Shown here piece after piece: positions 5,141 to 42,205 of a stretch of DNA of 64,000 nucleotides. Location: assembly GCF_032062135.1 (NCBI RefSeq), contig NC_092859.1, positions 106,225,117-106,289,116 of the forward strand, given 5' to 3'. Within the stretch, counting starts at the first letter, position 1; each line of letters begins with the position of its first letter. The stretch comes from Pyxicephalus adspersus. Taxonomy: Eukaryota > Chordata > Amphibia > Anura > Pyxicephalidae. The notes under the pieces are model-generated. The model did no database searches. It was not told the DNA's origin and saw only the letters and a program-made list of their open reading frames with translations. The position numbers were made by a program, and so were the translations under genes.

Positions 5141-7969
5141 TGTAGAAAAAGCCCCCTGTGTACATTTTTAGATTTTTTTAGGTAGATAGGAGATAAAATC
5201 ACAATACTCACAAATGCCAGCATGGATCGGAGGGGCACTTTTTCGCAGTTTCCAGCAGCTCTGCTGGAGTTTGAGGTAACATTAAACACATATTAACTGA
5301 TGTTGACTGGTATTTTAAATGCAAATGGAAACCAACAACTAAAACAAACATCTTCCAAATGAAACCAGTTAGATTGTCATGAATAAAGAACATCCAAGCC
5401 CCGTGTAATGTGTTGGAACTGTTACTGCAATAGCATTCAGTGATCTCTCAGGTATAAATGAAATCCACGATCCAGGGTTATAATCACATCATTCTTCCAT
5501 GGTTTGTTCTATGAATACTTGATGCCAAGGTAAGTTTGTTTAAACTGGCAGCACAATACACTACAGTTTAGAAACAGGATATCTGTTTCCATTTAGAAGA
5601 ATATTCTTCTTCATAGTTAAATACCTTTATTCTAGGATTTGGAGGAAGTCTGCTAAGGATGGCTTATGTGAGTATTTATTTCATGAAAGATGCATGGAGT
5701 GTAGTAATATACTCTGACAAGCATGAAGGGGCCCATTTGAAGTAATGTTGAATTAGCTTAAATCTTCCAAGAAGTTTATCAGATTTAGCACTTTTTACTG
5801 ATTATTAGGGTTCATATTACCGATCACAATTTAAATTAGATTATGACCTTGTTAATACATTTCATACTTAATAATTTAAAGCAGCAAAATATTTATTAGA
5901 TCAAGTAAGTTTTTTTAAATGCCCTGATCAATATCAGTAAATACAGGTATAAAAAGGTATATGTTATAGCATTTGAAGATGGAAACTGGAAATCATAGAA
6001 AAATTAACATTACCGAATGGCAGGCATGGTGAGGTTTAGTTAATATCCTTTGACATTTGCCAAACCCCCACCACCCTCCAATGGTATTATTAGCCTTCTG
6101 TTCACCAATACCTGACTTCCAGCCGATAGCAATTGGTAAGGTAAACATCAGCTGGTTGTTACTTTGTTACGACTATTTTGAAGTGTGTCTGCTTGAAGTT
6201 AAAAGAAAGGAGCCGCACCGGAGCCCTTGTTAAAGTTTGATTGAATAGGTTTGACTGTTCATATTAAACAAATTTAAATAAATTATATAGTAAGCCAAAC
6301 CTAGACATGTTCCCCAAACAATACTCTGGGACCAGAAGTGGAGGAAAATTTTCCCAGTGGTACGTAGACAGCAGAAAATAACATGGCTGGAGTTTTAAAA
6401 TAAATAAATAAAAGTTTACACCTTAATACAATGTGGGTATACTTATTTCAAAATGATAAAAAAGTGCTTAAATAAGTTCTGTTTTTTTCTGTTTGCATTC
6501 TTAGTTACAGTCAGAATATGGTAATGGAATATTTGTCATTATGGACTTCATTAAAATCTCACAAATACATTCCTAAGTAATACAGTATATTCTGTGTTTT
6601 ACATAACAGAATCCAGAAGTAAGCAGATACCTTATATTTCTGTTTAAAACAAATGCAGTTCATGTATTATGGTCATTTTATTACACTCTGATTGGAAATA
6701 CAGCTAAGGATTTCTTATCCCATAATGTATAACTCCTGTCAACACATTTTATTTAGATTTATATAAAGTGGAGAAGAGTTAGAATATATTTCAGATTGTA
6801 ATACTTAATGTCTGTGTCTTTGTCCAGGATGATTCACCTTCCCTGACTTTCAATATTCACTTTGTATGACTATTCAGACCAAAGCTGACTGATATTAGAA
6901 CAAAAAAACTATATATTTGTCCCATTAATAAATTTGTGGATTTTTTGGAAAAAATCAAATTCCCTCTCTGCAGTAGTGTACCAAGGGCAGAGCAATAGCG
7001 GCTTGTAACAACTTGTCCTAGGAGCAGGCGATAATGGAACACATCATGCAGACCATGTGGGTGGATTGATCTCTTGTCCAATGGTGCATACAATGTTCAG
7101 TGATGGAAGCACTCAGCAGTGTCAGACACAGGACCAGTGAAGAGCATCCATTTGTCTTTAACCTGATACTTACATCCATTAATGTAGGAGGCATTCTCAC
7201 TGACAAAATGTGAGGAATGTTCTTTCTATTGACCACTATTCTTCCTACTGTATTCTTCTCTTGAATGACAATGTGGCAGGCCATTATTTCCACTGCCACA
7301 GAAACACACAGATATTTTTTTCTGTAAAGGGGCAAATTCCAAAATGATGATTATAGGGGGCTCTCATTATAAAACAGGGAATGTGTCTGATTACGCTAGG
7401 AAAATTCAGTTTAATCTTTCTCAGTTTAATGTTCTCCATAGCATTTGACCCTAGCAGCAGCATCACAGTATAGCAGCCAATAACTGAAAAAAAAAACATC
7501 CAGCCACTTAGAATAAAAAGGGGCTAAAATTGAGCAGCTATAAAAACCTATTAACTAAAGGAGCTGAGAAATGAGTTATGCTGGATTTTTTAGTTTGTGG
7601 TTTATTTAAGGGAGACTGCCAATTTTTGCTGTTAACTCGTCCATATTGAATCTGCTTCTTTTATTTGGCAGCAAGACTGTCCATTAAAAAAACAAGAACA
7701 TTTAAGTGGACTGTTGTTCTGGCCACTGGTGTTTTATTGGCTTTCTTTGTTAGGAATGTATGTGTGATGTTGACACTGCCATGAAGCATTTTTGCCACAA
7801 ACCAGTTTTTACCCACTCATATATATTTATTTTATATGTAAAGGAAAAATGCCAGTTATAACCAGAAGTCTGCAATGCTTGAGCCTCTGATCATACCAGA
7901 AAAAGAACTGCTTCTGGCAAGTCTAAAAATTTCATCTAAAAAACTATATTAAATTGAAAATATTTAAAT
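5141..7969. other. intergenic, no recognisable gene
   Basis: AT-rich DNA. The open frames (for example 7018-7335 minus, about 105 codons) have composition expected by chance and no recognisable motif. No repeat boundary was identified. Confidence 0.45.
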
Positions 7970-8190
7970 GAGAGAAAAAGTGGAGATAGCGGATCTTTAT
8001 GGCAAAAAACAAATCTAACATGACATTAAACCTTTATTTCATTTACTAAAACATATACTTATTAGAAACATTATTTGTAAAAAAGGCCATGGAAATGTTA
8101 TTCATGACTTTATAAAAAACTCCCACATCTATAGAATCCAAAGTGTAGGTCAATACTGTACTTAAAGTCTCACCCGACGCGTTTCGCCCT
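7970..8190 (+). repeat. long inverted repeat, left arm
   Basis: It pairs with 8753-8975. The inner end reads cacccgacgcgtttcgccct, a CpG-rich motif that also occurs degraded at the inner end of the right arm and, reversed, near 43440. Confidence 0.9.
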
Positions 8191-8227
8191 AAACCTGCTT
8201 CCTTAGATGCACTCTGTCTGCTGTTAG

Positions 8228-8773
8228 ATGCACTCTGTCAGGCCTGTTGTAGCATATAGCTGCGCTAACCTGTGCTGGAGTGTGTTTTCGTCTGATTTAT
8301 TGTTGCTGATCCTGCCTGTTTCTGATCTTATATTAGATGTGATTGATGATCTTCAAGCACATATGGTTTCAAAGGAGCCTAAACTAATGAGAGCACTAAT
8401 ACCAGCACACAGAGTGCATCTAACAATCTTAGTAGCACATCTGAAAGGCGATGAAGAAGTTGAAAGGGCGTTCTTAGCATTACAACAAAGCAAGGAAAAA
8501 GAGAAACTACTGCAAGGTGAAACACTGAGACTAACACTTCATGGTATTGGACAGTTTAATAACCAAGTACTGTATATAAAGATTACAGAAAATGTACAAG
8601 AACTGCTCGTTCGAATTGCAGAAGAAGTGGCAGAATGTTTCATACGTAATGGTGTGGATCTTACTGGAACCAAAGATTTTAATCCGCACTTAACTTTCCT
8701 GAAGCTTACAAAGGCTCCATTTCTACGAAGAAAGGGTCTCAGAAATTCCCCGAGGGCAAAATGCGTCAGGTGA
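8228..8773 (+). CDS. AKAP7-like 2H phosphoesterase domain fragment
   Basis: This is an uninterrupted frame of 181 codons. From about codon 38 it resembles the central domain of AKAP7 gamma (and, less closely, LENG9). It has two HxT motifs, HLTIL at residues 64-68 and HLTFL at residues 154-158, 90 residues apart as expected for the 2H (LigT-like) fold that binds or cleaves nucleotides. A GIGQFNNQV segment between them matches the AKAP7 GIG.F.NQV strand. The first 37 or so codons look non-homologous. A ttatattag|atgtgat acceptor-like site at about 8336 suggests the real segment starts there. The frame ends in the right inverted repeat, so the domain's C-terminal third is missing. It could be a captured exon set or partial retrocopy. 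Expression is unknown. Confidence 0.72.
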   Translation: MHSVRPVVAYSCANLCWSVFSSDLLLLILPVSDLILDVIDDLQAHMVSKEPKLMRALIPAHRVHLTILVAHLKGDEEVERAFLALQQSKEKEKLLQGETLRLTLHGIGQFNNQVLYIKITENVQELLVRIAEEVAECFIRNGVDLTGTKDFNPHLTFLKLTKAPFLRRKGLRNSPRAKCVR

Positions 8774-8975
8774 GACTTTAGGTACAGTATTGACCTACAC
8801 TTTGGATTCTAAAGATGTGAGAGTATTTTATAAAGCCATGGATAACATTGCCATGTCCTTTTTTACAAATAATGTTTCTAATAAGTATATGTTTTAGTAA
8901 ATAAATAAAAGGTTTTATGTCATGTTAGATTTGTTTTCTGCCATAAAGAGCTGCTATCTCTCCACTTTTTCTCTC
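8753..8975 (-). repeat. long inverted repeat, right arm
   Basis: Reverse complement of 7970-8190. It contains cag|gtgaga at about 8767, a donor-like sequence that lies inside the repeat. Confidence 0.9.
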
Positions 8976-10676
8976 GTGTACTATTGGCTCGGCAACCACT
9001 TTAGTGGTATTTTGTAATCTTATCACTGCAGGACTGGCTTTCTGTCTTTCTGAAAACATTTAAAAACACACTATAGATATCTATATATAAAAACACTGGA
9101 ACGCCTTGTGGACAACGCACATCATTCAATGTGTGATCTTCTTGCTAATATCACTGTTAAATTTGCAGCTGGCAAGGTGTATACTGGTTGTCTAGAATGA
9201 CATAGCTGCATATCAATAGGAATCAAAACTCCAAAATCCAACCAATAGTCATTCCCACAAACTGTATTTTTTTATGTCCTTTTTTGAAATTCAGTAAATC
9301 CAATAAAAAAACAAAAAGGTAATAAAATCCTTAAGAACCTAATAGTTCAAAAACTCTACCAGTCAGTGGTATCCATTGATTTTCAGTTTTTATGAGTAGA
9401 ACCTCATGCACATAAAAGGTACAGATAAAATAAGCAGTATGCATCATGTGCTTGAATGTGTTTCCACAGCAGGCCTTTTCTCTATGTATTTCATCCACCC
9501 ATATGGAAGGGCTTTAGGTCTGCTTTTTTAGGAAGACAGTTGTAACTTTCTGCTGTGTAGGTGGATGTTATTTTTTTTTGATTTACCAGGGTATATGTAA
9601 ATGAAATGTGAACTAGCATATACTGTATGTATGAACTGGACTTGTAAATTGCCTGTAAGTTCCTACTTTATTTGGAGTTATACTAATATATCCCTGCCAA
9701 TCATGGACTGTTATTTGGCTGATAAGTAGGGATGAGGTTCAAAAATCAATTATCAGAGGGTCAAATACAAACATTAAATGTATACTGTTGGTTATTTTTG
9801 AGAACATATGAGGATGTTCATTGCAGGTGAAATTAAAAGAGGTTTGTAATTTAACAAACAGTCATGGATTATGGGGAGGGGGGAAGGTTCACCAGAATGA
9901 ACACATAAGGATAAGGACAAGGGACTAGGCCTTCAACGGCTAGGGAGAAGGAAACGGTCACACCCTACGGACACCCTAACGTAGCCCTGCCTTCTATCAG
10001 TATGAATATCCCCTGATGTTGGAAATACCATACACTGGAACCTAGGCCCTAGTTGCCCTGAATTACCCTAGGAATAGTGACTGGGCTTGAGACTACTGGT
10101 TCTTTCCCTGATGAAAGAACCAGCGTCTCCCCAGCGTCTCTCCACAAAACACCAAAAGCAGTTCAACTTATCCCAAATAGCAAATGGAGGAGCAGGAACC
10201 CTGAACAGGACAACACACCAGCTCTTCACATCCCAGAAGTGAATATCAACCACATAGCATGAAGTGTGAGGCCAGACTAAATGGAGGAGCAGTAATGACC
10301 ACCAGCTGCAGCTGATACAAGGGGTGTGGTCATTACAAACAACAACACAGAAACAAGTAAAAACAAAGAGACTGACAGATAACCTCACGTGTAGCTAGTC
10401 TCACAGATCTTCTAACCTCAGTCACGGAAGGGACCGTGACACAAACAGCTCCCAAATGTTTATCAGACAACTACCAGCCAATGGAAACTCTACCCGCTGT
10501 GTATATTTACACCTGCTTCAAGGCTTCTTGCTAACGTACAAGTTGTACCTGAAAACTCTGTTATTCTGTAACACCACATTATGCATTAAAACATACAACA
10601 TGAAATTTATTGCATTTCTACTTTTCTGTTTTATCAATGAGAAAATATTTAAAACAATAATTAGATTAAAATAAAT
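8976..10676. other. intergenic; probable unclassified repeat at 9870-10442
   Basis: From 9870 to 10442 the sequence is less AT-rich and ends in a small hairpin (gtcacgg..ccgtgac at 10421-10440), a kind of terminus I associate with interspersed frog repeats. Its class could not be determined. No conserved coding motif was seen in the open frames at 10068-10388. The rest is featureless. Confidence 0.4.
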
Positions 10677-15628: not shown

Positions 15629-17343
15629 GGGGACCATTTTTTATCCACTTCAACATAAAGCAATAATCTCAGTGTTCTCTGTGATCCACCTACTACGAAC
15701 TTACCAGAATTTTTAGACCCCATGATATTATTACAGAAAAGTCTTAACCCCTTATTATAGGCAAGTGAAAACTCTTGTATTCTTAGTTAACTTCAAATCA
15801 ACTCCACCATTGTCACTCAAGGAAAAAGATAAATGCTTTCATGGTGTAAAAGAAAAAGAAAAACTTTATTTTCTAAAACATATAAAGCTTGTCTCCTATA
15901 GACTTCAGAAGAGCTCCAGTACTAAGTTTGAATTGGAAGTAGTAGACCCACCAAAATCTGCTTTATCTCTTCTGATTTCTTCATTTTTTTATGGAGTTAA
16001 AAATGAATCCAGAGTATTCTAGGTACCAATTAAAAAAATGTGAGTTGACTAAATCTCTGGCTAAGAGCCTTTTTTATTTTTGGCAATGAATCTTCAGCAT
16101 TCATAGGCTTGTTTCCAAAAGATTTTTCCTCATAGTTTTAACTGATACTTTTCCAAGACCACCCAAAAGTAATGAAAGTGAAACTCATTGGAAGCAGGTA
16201 TGTTATTTGCCAGATGACAAAATGATGTGCCACAGATTAGGAGGTTTGTAATAAAAAAACAAACATTTTTTTTGATCCAGCATAAAAATCCAATTTTCTC
16301 TCTGTCAATAAGCCTGCTGAGCACAGTGTTTAACTAGCCAGTTGCATGAATAATTAAAAATCATGTTCCTCTAAAATGTCAATATTTTATATTGTTCAGT
16401 ATCATATGAACCAGTGACTATCGGAAAACTAAAAGTGTTTGGTAAATCCAGTTACCATGTTGGATGATGTGCACTGGTGGATCGTGGCATTGCTTTAAAT
16501 ACTCAAAGTGCCGTTTTATGAATAGCTAAAACTTTGTTTTATGACTTATATAATGGAGGAAAGGGTTAAAACCCTTGAGAAAGTTTGAAAATGTGGGAAA
16601 CCTCTCCAAAGAGGAGAATTGCTCTAACATTCTAGAAATATACAGTACATTTTGTTTCATTTCTATGATAATGTCACTTCCCAAAATAACATAAAGGACT
16701 TAAATAAATTGGCAAGGGTTAACCCTACTCTATAAAAAATGAAAAGAATAAAAATATGCTGGGTGTGTAAAAGTATATATGAAAGAACACAAACAGAAAA
16801 TATTATCCATGGTTCACAGTGGATCAGTATCAGCACAAAATTAGTGTAGCCTTTTGGCTCTCTTTGATACACTCCCTCCATAGCTCCACCTGACCTACAA
16901 TTTTTTTTGAAGACCTCCTTGGCTCTCCCTGCATACAGGATTTCCTCCTGAGCCACCTGGCCTCAGGCTCCAACTGGACCAAGGCTCAACACATTCCCTT
17001 TTATTATCATCAGCCAGGTGCTTCCAAGCCACCTTCAACTTCTGTCCTAGGCGAGGGAAGTCCTGCTCACTCCTTCTTTCCAAGACACTCAGTGCCTAAA
17101 TCCTGGATACCTTAAGTTCTTATTACTGCCAACTATTAAATAAAACAAATATACTTCCAAAAGTTTCCAGAAGAAAATCCAATTATTATTCGAAAAATTA
17201 CTGCAGCAGCAAAGTGAATGCGGACTTGAAATAAAAGGTTCCCAATAAAGGGAATATAGAAGCAATAAAAAAATTGCACAAAAAATTAGCAATCAAAATG
17301 AAAGTACAGTTTCCTAACTGTACTGTCACTAATCAGCCCCTAT
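15629..17343. other. intergenic, no recognisable gene
   Basis: AT-rich DNA with small open frames only. No similarity was recognised. Confidence 0.45.
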
Positions 17344-23388: not shown

Positions 23389-23815
23389 GGCTGCATTCAT
23401 TGATCAGCTCAGTGTGTGATCCCCGGCACTAGAGGTTTGATGGGGACAAGTCTCCCCAATCAAAACCTCTAGTGCTCTCTGAATGGCTGAGGAAAGAAAA
23501 ATCCTGATGACGCTTGAGCATCCTTTCCTCAGCCAATCAGAGAGCACTGGAGGTTTTTAATGGGGTGACTTGTCCCCATTTAACCTCCAGTGCCGGGGAT
23601 CGCACACTGAGCCGTGGCTGCATTCATTGATCAGCTCAGCCTGCAGGCCTTTTTTTTTTAGAAAAATTTTTTGTTTATTTTAAGAAAAAATTTATCTCGA
23701 TTGGCGAATTTACACTGGCCGTTTTCGCTTACAATTTTAGTAAGCAAGAATGGCCAAATTCGGCACGAGATCGAGTTTAAAATTCTCGCTCCCTCATCCC
23801 TAGACTTTACTGTGT
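23389..23815 (+). mobile_element. foldback element: long hairpin plus terminal module
   Basis: Two arms of about 90 bp (23407-23496 and 23523-23612) are inverted copies at nearly 90% identity around a 26-bp loop. A 24-bp direct repeat, ggctgcattcattgatcagctcag (23389-23412 and 23616-23639), flanks the hairpin. Inside the left arm a smaller palindrome (gaggtttga..tcaaaacctc) nests. To the right (23640-23815) lies an AT-rich tract and a module 'ttatctcg...gcttaca..gtaagcaagaatggcc' that recurs near 40945-41000. It has no open frame. The structure fits a foldback or MITE-type element. Confidence 0.7.
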
Positions 23816-35100: not shown

Positions 35101-36322
35101 GTATGACCAAATTCCATCCAACACGTAAACACTACTAGACGTTTATAACAGGCCCTGCAGGAGATCAGCCTATGCAAACTGAAACGCCATTATTTAGCTA
35201 AGGGCATGGTCAATGGTAAAGTGAAATACAAACACACTATATCGAAAAAGAGACTTTATTTTAAGGGTGAGAGCAAGAAGAAGTAGTTATAAAACTGAGG
35301 AGTTCAAGTCATGTCTACTTAATACAGCAACTTAATTTAAAAGCAATGGTGGTGTGTGAAGTACAACCAACCACAACTTAGGTAATGGTACTCCAGTAAA
35401 ATTGATTTAATTTTCAAATGAAAGGTTTAGGTCACCATTATTCTAATTTTCTGATATAGCACTTTAAAGTTAAACTATATATATATATATATTCTATATA
35501 CACCACACACACAAGTATATGTATACCTAGAGATTTTCGTGACCTGAAAATTACAGTAAGAAAAAACTCCCAGTAGATGTTGCTGTGTCCTTATGTAAAG
35601 TGTGTAACAAACTCTTTCCCTGCAGTTTAATACTAAATAATTTCTTACACAATTTACATGAAGACACAATAATGCACAAATGATTTGATTGGAGCGAGTG
35701 ACCCATACTAACCAACTCAATTTTTTCCCTTTTAAATAATAGGGTAAAAAAAAACATAATGCAGATTTAATTCACATCGATTTTATGGCCACAAACTGTC
35801 TAGGAGTTCACTGATGCACTGGTTCTGATGTCTAGGGAACCATTTGCCATCTCATCAGGAGCACACCAAGACATAACCAGAAGTGCATACAGGACATCCC
35901 TTCTACAATTAGCATTCATACCAGTTGGATTGCCATCCCAGATGCCAACATTCACTTTGGACAAGGGATACGCTTCTATTCTTTAGGTTTGGTGGACATG
36001 TATAAAACACAGAAATGGCAGGACAGATTTCCAAATCTTCTGATAGATAAGATAGTTAACCTATATGTATGGTATTTGTGTAATTATCAGTCTGTCTGGA
36101 GATCAGTCTATTTCTTGAAGTCTATAGGTGCATATGTCCAAAATAGGTCTCTAAGGTATAAATAGAAACAAAAAGGGCAAATCTACAGTTACAGAGTTGA
36201 TTTGTATCAACTTTTTCATCATAAGACCTTAATGTTTAAAAACCTTAATGTTTAGTGACTAACCACCACTTGGAAGAATGGATTTTGGGTATTGGCCTAA
36301 AATACAACATCAGGCAATATAT
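32116..36322. other. intergenic, no recognisable gene
   Basis: AT-rich DNA. It contains a small threefold direct repeat (about 20 bp unit, cactatcccaaattttccca) at about 34150-34207 and an (AT)n tract at 35476-35492. Open frames at 32126-32485 and 32813-33136 have no recognisable motif. Confidence 0.45.
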
Positions 36323-36756
36323 AAAGTCAGGAAAAAAAGAAAGTGCACCCTCTTTCAATTATAAGGTTTTGTGTACCAGGACATAAAAAAGCATTGTCAT
36401 TAACAGGTCTTAAAATTAGATAAATACAACCTCAGATGAACAATACATGACATATTACACTGTGTCAATATTTACTTAACAAATACTAAATCAAAATGTA
36501 GAAGCAGTGTGTAAAAAAACAAAAGAGAAAGACATCATCAGCAGTCAGAGTCAAGTCAATCAGAAGTCAGGCAAAAGCAATTGTGCTGCACATCAATCTG
36601 AAGAGACGTAAAACAGTCAAAACAATTGCCAATTTTCCCAGGAAAGGTCCCAGCAAGGCAGACAAAGGCAGACAGATATTGCAAAAACCCAAGTGCACCT
36701 CAGACTTAACAGGCTCCGGTTTGCATGCTAAATGTTATCACAGTTAAGGACAAGTG
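36323..36756 (+). mobile_element. Tc1-type transposon, left half (split by Ngaro)
   Basis: The terminus 'aaagtgcaccctctttcaatt' and the following text ('aggtcttaaaattagataaatacaacctcagatgaacaa', 'gacatattacactgtgtcaatattta') match a Tc1-type family I recognise from frogs. At 36690-36735, 'gacttaacaggctccggtttgcatgctaaatgtta' is part of its transposase region. The coding frame is broken. The matching right half lies at 41595-42205. Boundaries with the inserted Ngaro are approximate. Confidence 0.7.
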
Positions 36757-37274
36757 TAAAGGGGGATAATAAAGCCATCTTACCTCTGCCAGCCGAGCCC
36801 CCAGAACGTCTCGTTACCCATCGACCCTTTGAAAAATACAGAGACCTGTCTTGGATATACCTGGCCATAGCAGCCTATTATTGACAAAATATAAAATATT
36901 AATAAAACTTTTTCTCTATTAAATCCACAACAGTAAACACAATATAACAAATAACAAATACATTTAAAATATCAAGTTTTTTGACAGTCCATGACAGTAC
37001 CACTGCATCCCTAACTGTCACCTGGATATTCCTGCACACTACAATTAGGCCCCCAGCGGCTAGCACACCGGCTTAGGGACAACACATAAGTATCCCACTA
37101 ATCCCACCGGGTCTCACTACAACCCAGTGTTCAATAACCCCACTATCATGCACCTCCAAAAACCACCACCCCGCCGCAAGCATGACACCTGTTAAAGTGT
37201 GGGGTGCACCTCCACACCTTAACACCACGCTGTAAACCTTGCTGCAAACTCAAAACCCAAAGGTTTGTCCCCAC

Positions 37275-37743
37275 TTCATTTAAATGCCCCCGCCCGACAG
37301 ATAGGGTCCCCCTTCCAAATCACTATGACACACTGCCAACTCACCAATCTGCACCACAAATTTACTCATTGTCCTAATAATGCTCTGTTCAAACAGTCCA
37401 CAGACCATGCACGCCTCCACGTCAACCGTGCCACCATCTCAGACCATAGCAGGACAGTGTCAGGAAATCCGGACCTTAATCTCAGAAAATCTAGTTTAAT
37501 ATCCTTAAGTAATTCACGCAAGGACCTAGATCCCACATCATTACCCCCAGCATGGATTAATAGAATGTCAGGCAGAGGATCTAAACGGGCGTACCTGTTG
37601 ATTTCTGGAATCACACGGCTCCACTGCATTCCAGGTATTCCTGGCTTCACCAGGCCGAAAGCCCAACTGCTGCCCACTTTGTCGCACCTCCGCCCGCCGG
37701 AGGCATTCCTTTGAATCTGTAATCTAAATAAAGGAAAAAACAT
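37275..37743 (-). pseudogene. SGNH/GDSL-type hydrolase domain of Ngaro
   Basis: An open frame of 125 codons (37366-37743) contains HAGGND at residues 64-69, the block III Gly-x-Asn-Asp of SGNH hydrolases (lipase/acetylesterase-like). Ngaro elements are known to carry such a domain of unclear function after the recombinase. A G-S-S segment near residue 24 occupies the place of the block I nucleophile motif. A downstream H-L-N-E at 37275-37286, in a shifted frame after a stop, would be the block V histidine. The shift and stop make this copy a pseudogene. Confidence 0.75.
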
Positions 37744-37846
37744 ACAACCTCAAACACAAAAAATCCCCCAATCCCCAACAGTTACCACAACAACACATAC
37801 CGGAACCCCCCAGAAAACACACCTCCCTACATCACCATATACTCAC

Positions 37847-38739
37847 CTACAGCAACTGCGGCCGAATGTACAACCGGTAACGGTTGGACGACCAATACGC
37901 TTGATTGCCTCCTTGTCCAACCCCCACGAGCCGCCTCAGTAGCTGCCCTAATTTGAAAAGAATGTAAGGATAACTCCTCAGCCCTCCTACCTGTAGTCCG
38001 CACACAATTTTTTTTAACACTGCCCCGAACTGAAAACGCGCCAGCGGAGACCCATCACGATGCATGAAGAAAGGGCCATCACCAGGCCCCCCCCCTCCAA
38101 GTATTGACGAACCGCCCGCACTGGGAAGGCCGCAGACCCTGGCAAGCAACCCAATATCAGACAAGCACCCCTAACCCCCTGATCAGTTTTAGACCTCAGT
38201 ATCTTAATCCTCAACCTATGATCCTGCACACCCACGTCCTTCCGAAACAAGCCGACAAGCCTGGCTCCGCTCGGACTCTAGGACTACTTCCTCCACCCAC
38301 AAGGATGCAAAAAAGGTGACCGTAAAAACTTCCTGAAACAAGACCACCTCAAAGGAATCCACACAGACCTCTCCCAAAGAAGTCAGTAAATCAAACAGCA
38401 TGTCAAAGGAAACAGGCCTCTGAGTATCCTTCCCCACACTGCCCCTCTTATACCCCTTTAAGGCCTGTCGAACCAGAACATGTTTAGTATGATCAACAGC
38501 CCCCCTCCCCCCAACTGACACAAAAATGTCAACGCAGAATTCTTTTTAGATATCACATGACCTGAAACCCCTCTACAAAATAACTGCTAAAAACAACAAC
38601 AACATAAGCAGACCCTGCACATCCAGCCCTGCTCCCTTCTGCCGCACAAAATTAAACCATTCCTGCCACGTGTGTACATACGCCTTCCACATTTCTTCCG
38701 CCACGGACCGCTGAATCACGCCTACCAAATACCCTAGAC
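37847..38739 (-). pseudogene. tyrosine recombinase of Ngaro
   Basis: Minus-strand segments read, in order, an N-terminal SAM-like piece (EEMWKAYVHTWQEW near 38690-38640), a middle piece with KILRSKTDQ (the beta-strand with the conserved lysine, about 38190), and a C-terminal WSSNRYRLYIRP, where the tyrosine of LYIRP is the expected nucleophile (about 37860). This enzyme would insert the circular DNA intermediate. The frame changes at least twice (38573-38521, 38250-38014 against 38164-37847). The hAT-type insertion cuts it from the upstream RNase H frame. Confidence 0.75.
38732..38739 (+). repeat. hAT 8-bp target duplication, copy 1
   Basis: ccctagac, repeated exactly at 39236-39243. Confidence 0.9.
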
Positions 38740-39235
38740 CAGGGGTGTCAAACTCAAATACACAGAGGGACAAAAGTTAAAATTTAGACCAAGTCGGGGG
38801 CCAAACTTGAAATTTATTGAAAAAGTTGAGGAAGTTTACTACTTCATCCATAACTAACAAAAAAAAACCCCTCTACACACACGTTAGGGTTGAAAAGACT
38901 ACTTTTTATCTATCTATGCAGGCTGTGTGTTGTTCATCCTCTCACATCACAAGTTTGTCTGACACTAAATATTACACTATGCAGTCTCTAATGGATTGAA
39001 ACAAACACAATGCCCCTGGTAGTCAGGCACCATGTGATCATTGCCTAGGCTTTGTGTCACATGATGGGTGTACAGGAATAATGTCTTATTGTATTGCATG
39101 TATTAAAAATGATGATGTGAGGTGGTAACGCGGGCAGGCAGCCAGATGTAGTTCATTTTCGGAATTCTTTAGGGGGCCATAAAAAAGGACCACGAGGGCC
39201 AGATTTCGCCCGCGGGCTAGAGTTTGACACCCCTG
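38740..39235. mobile_element. hAT-type non-autonomous element (496 bp)
   Basis: Perfect 16-bp inverted termini: caggggtgtcaaactc on the left and gagtttgacacccctg on the right. A perfect 8-bp target duplication (ccctagac) flanks the element, the hallmark of hAT insertion. The terminal region continues as an imperfect repeat (gggccaaa / ttcgcccgcggg). There is no transposase frame. It was inserted into the Ngaro element and is therefore younger than it. Confidence 0.9.
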
Positions 39236-39243
39236 CCCTAGAC
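39236..39243 (+). repeat. hAT 8-bp target duplication, copy 2
   Basis: Second exact copy of ccctagac. Confidence 0.9.
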
Positions 39244-39588
39244 AATTGTCCACAGACCTGGCAGGCAAGGAGTGCTGTGACGATCCGCCTCTGGAACCAG
39301 CTCCCGGAACCTTGCCCACTGGGAACAAGAAAGAAAATCAGCCACATTATTATCCAGACAAGGCACATGCACCGCCCTCACATAAATGTTATGGCGCAAA
39401 CACAGCAACACCCCATGACGAAGTAATCGAACCACCGGAGGCAAATTAGCCATATTGCTATTAAATGCCCCTACAACCCCCAAATTATCACAATGTAAAC
39501 AAACCCTGCGATTACCCAGCTCACTCCCCCAGATCGCCAAAGCCACCACCAACGGGAACAACTCAAGCAACAACAAATTTTTGCACAC
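39244..39588 (-). pseudogene. RNase H domain of Ngaro
   Basis: An open stretch of 116 codons includes LLLELFPLVVAL, VCLHCDNLGVVGAFN and VPCLDNNVADFLS, which are the conserved E, D-N and D-N-xxAD-x-LS motifs of DIRS/Ngaro RNase H. It would degrade the RNA strand during reverse transcription. The domain's first part, with the TDAS-type motif, lies in another frame upstream. The 3' end is cut by the hAT-type element. Confidence 0.75.
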
Positions 39589-39682
39589 CTAAGCTTCCAC
39601 CCAAGAGTCAGGCAACCTCTCCGCACTCCAGTGACCAGCCCAATAAGCGCCATAAACCTGTACCCCCTACCGCATCCGTGAA

Positions 39683-40693
39683 CTAGTCCAAGGCCACATT
39701 AGACCATTCCAAAAGCTGTAGGCAAACTCCCAAGTTCTCCCCTAACTCTCTGGTCAACTGAATGAAATGCCCCAGAGACCACACTCCCGCTGTAGCTGCC
39801 GCCAGAGGCCTACTAAACACTCTCCTCATTAGCATATTATTGCATGCGAAATTCAACTTCCCTAAGAGGGATTGCAATTCACACAACCGAATTTTGCACA
39901 AACCGTGGGCTCTGCACACTACCAAACGCAAACTGTCAACCTTATCATCTGGTAACCGACTCCATGGCAGAGGAATCCAAAACAATCCCTAGAAAACACC
40001 AAACAGTCCGAGGTGATTCAGTCCTTTCAGCCGCCAACTGAACTCCATAAGACTCCACCTGTTGCAAAGTACCCAGTAAGGTAGCACAAACCCAGGAACC
40101 AGGAGGACCAACACAAAAAAATCATCCAAGCAATGTATAACCAAAATCAACCCAGACACACCCCGCACCAACCATTCCAAAAAGAGCTCAAAACTTCAAA
40201 AATTGCACATGAAATAGCACAATCCATCAGAAGACATTTGTCAACAAAAAAGGCCCCGTGCCATTCACAAACAAACAACCGAAAACTATCCAGATGTACA
40301 GGCAACAAACAAAACGCCGCCTCCACATCCTCTTTGGCCAATAAACAACCCCTACCAGCATTACGCACCAATGCCATATCAAACGAAGTATTATGCACCT
40401 TACACAATTCCGGATCAATACCGTCATTCACTGACCCCTCTGGGGTACAGCAAATGATGAATCATCAGGTACTTGTTGGACTCCTTCTTGGGCACCACTC
40501 CCAATGGTGACACAACCAAGCCAGGAAGCGGAGGCACAACAAAAGGCACTGCCATGCGGCTCAACTCTACCTCCTTCCTCAGCTTGGCCATGACCACATC
40601 ACGGTGCGCCAAAGCCGAGCGCAAAATTCCTGGATAGCCAGAATGGAAAATGCCTGCAACCAGTTTTGAAACGTGCGAACAATCGAGCACCAA
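39683..40693 (-). pseudogene. reverse transcriptase of Ngaro
   Basis: Consecutive overlapping minus-strand frames (40693-40424, 40431-40147, 40180-39989, 39985-39683) read a DIRS-type reverse transcriptase. The motifs are GLVVSPLGVVPKKE, NDGIDPELC, LLAKEDVEAAF, HCLDDFFV (the catalytic box, usually HYLDDF in this group; the Tyr is replaced by Cys here) and LQSLLGKLNFAC (connection). Each frame change marks a frameshift, so the copy cannot make enzyme. Confidence 0.8.
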
Positions 40694-40930
40694 GCACTCT
40701 TTTCCTCACTCGCTCTCTTCCCCTCACTTACCTTGAAATTCCGGGCTCCACTGGCAAACGCTCCGCTGGCAAAAGTGAAAAAATCTCTACATACTCACCC
40801 CTCCAAACTATTACCCGCACCTCCGATGTTAAATGCGCTCCCAAAGGCCCCTCAAAACAGACAAAAACCTCACCTTTGGTCACATCACCAACAGACGAAC
40901 CCTTGCTTAACCCCACTAGGGTTAAGGGAG

Positions 40931-41594
40931 CGAAATTTTTATTTCCATCTCGCGTTGAATCGGGCCTTACTAGCTTACAGAACATGTAAGCAAGAACGGC
41001 CTTGTGATTCGCCACAAGGTCGTGTTCTCGCCGATCTCAGATGATCTCTCAATGGAGAAGCTCCATTGCGAGTTCATCTGGAGTTCGCCTGCAGTCACAG
41101 CTGATTGGAAGCACTCGCAGGTTCCCATAGTCACTGGGCTGTACTTATCAATGATAAGTACAGCCCGGTGACCACAGGAACTGAACTCAAGATGAACCCT
41201 CAATGGTAAAACTCCATTCAGAGTTTATCTGAAGTTCGCCTGCAGTCACAGCTGATTGGAAGCACTCACGTGCCTCCAATCAGCTGTGATGCAGGTTCCC
41301 ACGCTCCCCGGGCTGTACTTATCAATGATAAATACAGTCCGGTGACCGTGGGAACTGAACTCAGATAAACTCTCAAAGGAGCAACTCCATTGAGAGTTCA
41401 TCTGGAGTTTGCCTGCAGTCATAGCTGATTGGAAGCACTCGCATGCCTCCAATCAGCTGTGAATGCGGTTACCATGGTCACTGGGCTATACTTATCAATG
41501 ATAAGTACAGCCCGGAGACTGTGGAAACTGAACTCAGATGTGGATCTGGAGTTCACCTGCAGTCACAGCTGATTGGAAGCACTTGCATGCCTGG
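40931..41594 (+). mobile_element. foldback/tandem-palindrome block
   Basis: A terminal module at 40931-41030 (atctcg..gaatcg, 'agcttaca..gtaagcaagaacggcc', and a small hairpin ggccttgtg..cacaaggtc) resembles 23690-23765. It is followed by four imperfect tandem units marked by 'cctgcagtcacagctgattggaagcact' at about 41088, 41239, 41412 and 41556 (spacing about 145-175). Each of three units carries the palindrome gggctgtacttatca/tgataagtacagccc; the copy at 41136-41166 is perfect (15 + 1 + 15). A second inverted pair, agctgattgga..tccaatcagct, also recurs. No protein is encoded. It sits between the Ngaro and the right half of the Tc1. Confidence 0.7.
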
Positions 41595-42205
41595 ACCTGG
41601 GTACCTTGCAGTCCATTGAGTCAACCATAAAGTCTTCTGTATAGCAAACTATTCTTGAGTCAAATGTGAAACCATCCTTACAATAGCTAAAGATTTGTAA
41701 AATTGGGTCATGCAACAAGACAATGATTCCAAGCACACCAGCAAATCTACAACATATATTATAAATAAAATGAATCAAGGTGTTGCAACGTTCCAGTCAA
41801 GTCTAGACCTCAACATGACACAAATGCTGTGGTGGGGCCTTAAGAGAGCTGTATAGACAAATGCCCACAAACCCAACTGAACTAAAGCAATGTTTTAAAG
41901 AAGAGTGGGCCATGTTCCCTCACAATAATATGAAAGACTGATAAAGTAATAGAGAAAATTATTATCTCAAGGTATTGCTGCTAAAGGTGTTTCTACATGT
42001 TAATGAAGCATGGGGTGTACTTATTTCTTCACACATGGCTTCATCATTTTGGTTTCATTTATGTTAAACAATCACATGAGAAATATGTTGGGTGCTGGTT
42101 TAGATTAGATTTTAATAATTTTAGAAGTCGATAAGGACCAGATGAATTTTTTTATGTACTAATAAACAGAATTGGAAGGGTGCTTTCATTTTCTCATTAT
42201 TGCAG
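41595..42205 (+). mobile_element. Tc1-type transposon, right half
   Basis: At 41713-41750 the plus strand reads QQDNDSKHTSK, the signature around the second catalytic Asp of Tc1 (DD34E) transposases. Next comes a degraded FQSSLDLN at about 41790-41815, corresponding to WPSQSPDLNPIE before the third catalytic residue. The 3' flank 'ggggtgtacttatttcttcacacatgg' and a terminus about 42175-42200 (ttggaagggtgctttcatttt) pair in inverted sense with 36335-36365. Stops interrupt the frame. Confidence 0.75.

Follow-up and report, generated by a model that had tools for sequence, protein, structure and literature searches.

A unit in which two long inverted arms enclose a fragment of a host gene lies at 7970-8975 of the stretch of Pyxicephalus adspersus DNA analysed here (64 kb, hereafter the window). 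This unit is probably a decaying, mRNA-derived gene fragment that was patched into a transposon with long terminal inverted repeats (TIRs) by break repair, which would make it an RNA-derived Pack-TIR. Its features, with their positions in the window, are the following.

7965-7966, no strand: candidate TA target-site dinucleotide on the left, a weak call whose partner would be 8979-8980
7970-8190, plus strand: left arm (long terminal inverted repeat), 91% complementary to 8753-8975
8203-8226, minus strand: filler copy 1, inverted, the reverse complement of 8400-8423 (22/24), reading ADRVHL on the minus strand
8222-8238, minus strand: filler copy 2, inverted and in tandem to copy 1, the reverse complement of 8409-8425 (17/17), reading DRVHLT
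8228-8773, plus strand: open reading frame of 181 aa, ATG to TGA, with its start codon inside filler copy 2
8239-8329, no strand: stretch of 46% GC between the filler and the captured fragment, the last 34 nt being a possible upstream-exon remnant
8330-8743, plus strand: putative captured fragment of a frog AKAP7-like mRNA, intron-free, 138 codons from ILD to GLR, 87% identical to the Pyxicephalus protein P0072
8744-8752, no strand: junction on the right, where the captured fragment passes into the arm, by direct reading
8753-8975, minus strand: right arm (inverted copy of the left arm), with 15 substitutions and three indel events relative to it

The two arms match each other in inverted orientation at 91% over 223 columns (90% when ungapped), with an E value of 4e-86 that rules out a chance origin, and the inverted arms of about 220 bp and 85-90% identity described in the original prediction are thus borne out. 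Beyond the arms, the inverted match runs imperfectly out to a TA on either side, and to judge from these bases a TA target site is possible at the outer ends. No 9-bp target duplication, the hallmark of Mutator elements, was seen there by eye. The arms and the frame occur together once within the 64-kb window, in which no third copy of an arm was found, the sole other match at E <=0.01 being one of 20 bases (15865-15884). The inter-arm interval of 562 nt holds most of the 181-aa frame. Host-gene sequence lies between the two inverted arms, whose form suggests that they belong to a repeated transposon family.

Both arms share an open frame that reads outward (8049-8237 on the minus strand and 8703-8894 on the plus strand, about 45 aa being shared). 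When the arm peptides were used in a protein search, 17 candidates came up, none at E <=1, and among the papers listed for the arm motif ACGCGTTTCG (titles and starts of abstracts) none was on transposons. When viral contigs were searched with the frame and two arm patterns, eight stretches fitted a pattern, none of them a relative, and nothing else was returned; a plasmid search gave no match, and Rfam gave none at the gathering score.

Several other features were observed elsewhere in the window. A 206-bp stretch (23407-23612) matches itself in inverted orientation at 83% and is probably another hairpin-type MITE. The region 36001-42000 is richer in GC and strongly skewed in both GC and AT; two minus-strand ORFs (37366-37749 and 39238-39588) have no Pfam match but resemble DIRS-type retrotransposon products on reading, and a 173-bp tandem repeat is found at 41117-41539. 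The minus-strand segment 51392-51847 matches neither Pfam nor any PDB sequence; on reading, it resembles the final exon of a class 3 semaphorin gene. A reverse transcriptase remnant is present at 1565-2107 on the minus strand (RVT_1, E = 2.1e-5, below the family cut-off).

The captured piece derives from a frog AKAP7-like paralogue. A search of 5.8 billion proteins with the frame returned 13 relatives, all named as AKAP7-type (11 from birds, one from a lizard and one from a frog), and an alignment-based search returned 218, the best 120 of which were used for comparisons among homologues. Within these best 120 of 218, the closest relative is an uncharacterized AKAP7-like protein of P. adspersus itself (P0072, 87% over 146 columns), followed by the proteins of Rana and Mantella, each at 75%, and of Hyperolius, at 73%. 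A tree was built from 16 sequences, namely the window frame and 15 picked from the best 120 of 218 homologues; in it, the frame is sister to P0072 (support 99) and falls with a vertebrate AKAP7-like paralogue distinct from AKAP7 itself. Given this strongly supported pairing, capture would have taken place later than the split from Rana and Mantella. P0072 is itself a full-length relative. The long AKAP7-like paralogue of frogs (P0071, P0072, P0077-P0079 and P0082) is about 500 aa in most frogs examined and has an extended N-terminus, and four of these six records are named just "uncharacterized protein".

Eight frog proteins were aligned to the window; their alignments start at 8312 (four, with a one-residue gap), 8321 (three) or 8330 (one) and end at 8743 (seven) or 8734 (one), and the secure left end of homology was taken as 8330, at the codons of ILD. 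When the whole 64-kb window was searched with the same eight proteins (tblastn), nothing else better than E 0.25 was found, that is, no neighbouring exons.

Exon ends were deduced from the points at which partial or misjoined orthologous proteins break (best 120 of 218), which place junctions near 8329/8330, 8620/8621 and 8734/8735. At the first of these, Q|ILD, homology begins in 10 of the 120 homologues, and five more begin 6-11 residues before it, with tails (LLFTA or LPFTALQ) that resemble read-through from the end of an intron. At the second, RIA|E, which is drawn from birds only, homology stops in three of the best 120 of 218, and a fourth protein (P0104) diverges there by eye. At the place of the third, RRK|G, homology ends in five of the same 120: a frog (Ranitomeya P0103), two birds and two snakes. 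The Ranitomeya protein goes on with V (a GT codon) after RRK, as expected for read-through into a phase-0 donor. Other break points were not counted as junctions; single proteins begin at positions 214, 231, 246 and 259 of P0072, nine begin at 207 (the domain start) and two end at 367.

The window sequence is continuous across RIA|E and reads GLR after RRK, where its bases are GG and not a GT donor. Over the three codons past RRK|G, the best of seven frog proteins is that of Hyperolius (score 15, against 8 for Pyxicephalus), and 4 of 500 shuffles reach 15. Without introns at the predicted RIA|E and RRK|G junctions, the captured piece most likely came from spliced RNA, the introns of the parent gene in this species being predicted from orthologous proteins. 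A point against an RNA origin is that homology starts almost exactly at Q|ILD, which would be a coincidence for a piece of mRNA unless a 34-nt extension to the left is real. This extension (8296-8329) may derive, with a shift of frame, from the exon upstream (YFVAIPVTNDQ); it is suggestive only and we do not count it as support, since the match past Q|I needs one frameshift and was reached by 2 of 500 shuffles and, in a larger comparison, by 15 of 3000 shuffles as well as by 28 of 3000 pieces of real T-rich sequence.

These results bear on how the element had been described from its sequence. The splice acceptor suggested at about 8336 (tattag) is part of the ILD codons, to which all eight frog proteins align, and the supposed gtgaga donor (8770-8775) sits, on direct reading, within the right arm, so that neither can be retained. 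The proposal that a transposon captured a host exon, as an analogue of Pack-MULEs, stands for a TIR unit holding host-gene sequence but not for the exon, as at least two predicted junctions are crossed without introns. The possibility that two unrelated insertions happen to flank an ordinary AKAP7-like gene was rejected, there being no introns at the predicted junctions and no neighbouring exons. With introns judged from orthologues, the captured piece is intron-free as a processed pseudogene would be, and it would have failed the filter of the animal Pack-TIR survey (Tan et al. 2021, PMC8277862), the available text of which describes captured intronless copies of multi-exon genes as having been dropped as retroduplicates. 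RNA-derived captures would therefore be missing from that survey.

The left side of the fragment carries a second trace of its history. Close to the left arm is filler consisting of two inverted copies (17-24 nt) of a part of the captured sequence, which together read DRVHLT-ADRVHL on the minus strand, the D codon of copy 2 running to 8239. The filler match score of 18 was reached by none of 5000 first-order random sequences (maximum 15) and none of 5000 window pieces (maximum 12). Both copies encode D (Asp) where the frame now has H (His). The same residue is D in Hyperolius and Mantella and E in Pyxicephalus and Rana, and H occurs in none of the 95 homologues (among the best 120 of 218) whose motif could be located. 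Most likely, then, the captured sequence served as template for the filler before the frame changed at this residue. No further templated pieces were detected in 8239-8329 (the score being equalled by 33 of 300 and 106 of 300 shuffles), and part of 8191-8329 may be ordinary transposon sequence. On the right, the fragment joins straight to the arm, with no poly(A) and no mRNA 3' end seen by eye at 8744-8752.

The 181-aa frame (8228-8773) is made up of 34 residues before ILD, 138 captured residues and nine from the junction and the arm. As originally predicted, it is open and contains two HxT motifs spaced 90 residues apart (HLT at 8417-8425 and at 8687-8695) together with a GIG.F.NQV segment, here GIGQFNNQV. 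It thus has both HxT motifs of an AKAP7-like 2H phosphoesterase but not the complete domain: the Pfam family AKAP7_NLS matches it above the cut-off (E = 3.8e-22) over profile positions 14-152 of 208 only, as compared to positions 1-206 of 208 in Pyxicephalus P0072 and Rana P0071, and it has neither the first strand (NYFVAIP) nor the C-terminal quarter. The AKAP7 structures 5jj2 (E = 2.1e-21) and 2vfk match the frame in sequence. A structure model of the frame was too poor for use (mean pLDDT 38.3), as was a full-length bird control modelled with the same nine sequences (mean pLDDT 43.7). The "intact" AKAP7-like domain first described, and with it an intact 2H enzyme, was rejected on this truncation at both ends; on profile coverage, the frame is a domain fragment, a putative decaying pseudogene piece.

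The rate of change in the frame is consistent with such decay. In the 16-sequence tree, the branch of the window frame is about three times as long as that of Pyxicephalus (0.080 vs 0.026), and 7-10 changes are found in the window only, against 2-4 in Pyxicephalus only, the numbers varying with the choice among six outgroup frogs. The divergence of the arms gives a neutral expectation of 10.1 amino-acid changes (95% range 5-17), which the change in the frame matches, giving no indication of constraint on it. Assuming that 18% of indels are harmless, the probability that the frame stays open is 0.056 under full neutrality, with all arm differences arising after insertion, a low value that speaks against neutral decay; should half of the arm differences predate insertion, it rises to 0.24. 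Selection as the sole cause of the open frame was rejected on these estimates. The frame has no substitution at columns that are invariant in the other 15 sequences, and one residue is deleted, at a position where all 15 have V or I. Six of seven window-only residues lie in its first half (tail 0.06), a post hoc observation that is not used as evidence. Decay without selection would seem to suffice, no clear sign of selection on the frame being apparent from these comparisons.

How the fragment could have come to lie between the arms may be outlined as follows. The starting point would have been a long-TIR DNA transposon, hairpin-prone and MITE-like, residing in the frog genome. A double-strand break would have occurred in its middle (the long TIRs could form a hairpin), and the gap would have been patched with a reverse-transcribed, spliced mRNA fragment of the host AKAP7-like paralogue. 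During joining on the left side, the repair polymerase would have folded back or switched template, leaving two short inverted copies of the patch, and the two arms would then enclose a piece of pseudogene that is truncated and decaying. The break, the reverse transcription and the foldback are inferred, and capture probably happened in place rather than during transposition. Such a course of events would account for the main features of the unit. RNA-derived patches at double-strand breaks have been reported in human cells, where they are described as dropping more than threefold with reverse-transcriptase inhibitors and as using transfected mouse RNA (PMC5110952). At yeast double-strand breaks, foldback is reported to yield templated inverted duplications, mostly of 5-34 bp (PMC11724301). 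Animal Pack-TIRs, frogs included, have already been published, and in the available text of that survey the single-copy ones are mostly ascribed to gap filling within an existing transposon (PMC8277862). Among the matches listed in the literature searched, judged by titles and starts of abstracts, neither an AKAP7-like capture nor an mRNA-derived Pack-TIR was described.

Other routes to such a unit were weighed. The fragment could have been captured and then transposed, several copies with arms and frame existing (the FoSTeST model of PMC8277862). This seems unlikely: the outer ends are both preserved in register, with possible TA flanks, and three of the four multicopy cases reported in that survey are from the western clawed frog, but those four are just 1.4% of its Pack-TIRs, and none of the 13 protein relatives is an evident second copy (a weak argument, transposon copies often being unannotated). 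A LINE-made processed pseudogene, inserted in the transposon and trimmed by later deletions, would explain the lack of introns in the captured fragment. We nonetheless consider it distinctly unlikely, as no poly(A), mRNA 3' end or target-site duplication is seen by eye at the inner junctions and the inverted bits duplicate an internal stretch rather than inverting the 5' part.

It is improbable, too, that the parent gene is without introns in this lineage and that an ordinary gap-filling event copied a genomic exon. The coincidence of the secure left end with an exon start (Q|ILD) fits this route, as does gap filling being the usual origin given for single-copy Pack-TIRs (PMC8277862). However, intron loss would be needed at two junctions, one of which (RRK|G) is a break point in the five homologues named above, that of the frog Ranitomeya among them, and the window has GG and not a GT donor after RRK. 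Finally, the 181-aa frame might have been domesticated as a small functional 2H protein or a 2-5A decoy, since it is open with both HxT motifs, unsubstituted at the otherwise invariant columns, and had a probability of only 0.056 of staying open if all arm differences arose after insertion. A domain truncated at both ends, a start codon in filler, the residue deleted in the V/I column, a roughly neutral rate and the value of 0.24 obtained when half of the arm differences are taken to predate insertion make this extremely improbable. The reading we prefer thus continues to be a patch of spliced mRNA added during break repair.

Read in this way, the unit has partial counterparts among known systems. 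With animal Pack-TIRs (PMC8277862) it shares host sequence between putative TIR ends, a small capture, a proposed gap filling by template switching and occurrence in frogs; it differs from those reported there in appearing RNA-derived and in its templated inverted filler, intronless captures having been discarded from the survey. Plant Pack-MULEs (known here via PMC8277862) likewise hold a gene fragment within a DNA transposon, whereas the frog unit has no 9-bp target duplication by eye and no evidence of amplification. Like class 2 of the templated sequence insertions described at breaks (PMC5110952), the frog patch is without LINE hallmarks and is possibly RNA-derived, but it sits in a transposon and would be mobilisable in principle. 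MER6, a Mariner-derived MITE with a SINE V domain (PMC6887750), is also reported as a vertebrate DNA transposon carrying retroelement-derived sequence; it holds a SINE domain and has multiplied, whereas the frog unit holds a protein-coding mRNA piece. Compared with the central 2H domain of AKAP7 / AKAP18 (PDB 5jj2, 2vfk), the frame keeps both HxT motifs and the GIG segment but lacks about a third of the domain, at both ends.

This single locus probably has no biological effect. It is very improbable that frog TIR transposons take up spliced mRNA via break repair and spread intron-free frames, with the truncated 2H frame being expressed here as a decoy or RNA regulator of its parent. The filler copies retain a codon that predates the one in the frame, so that the order in which capture and decay took place would be readable within one copy. 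If our interpretation is right, RNA can serve to fill DNA transposons, and this would join retroposition and Pack-TIR formation, two processes usually counted apart. An RNA-to-DNA-transposon route for exon shuffling, if true, would be one that the main animal survey (PMC8277862), as described in its available text, removed by design.
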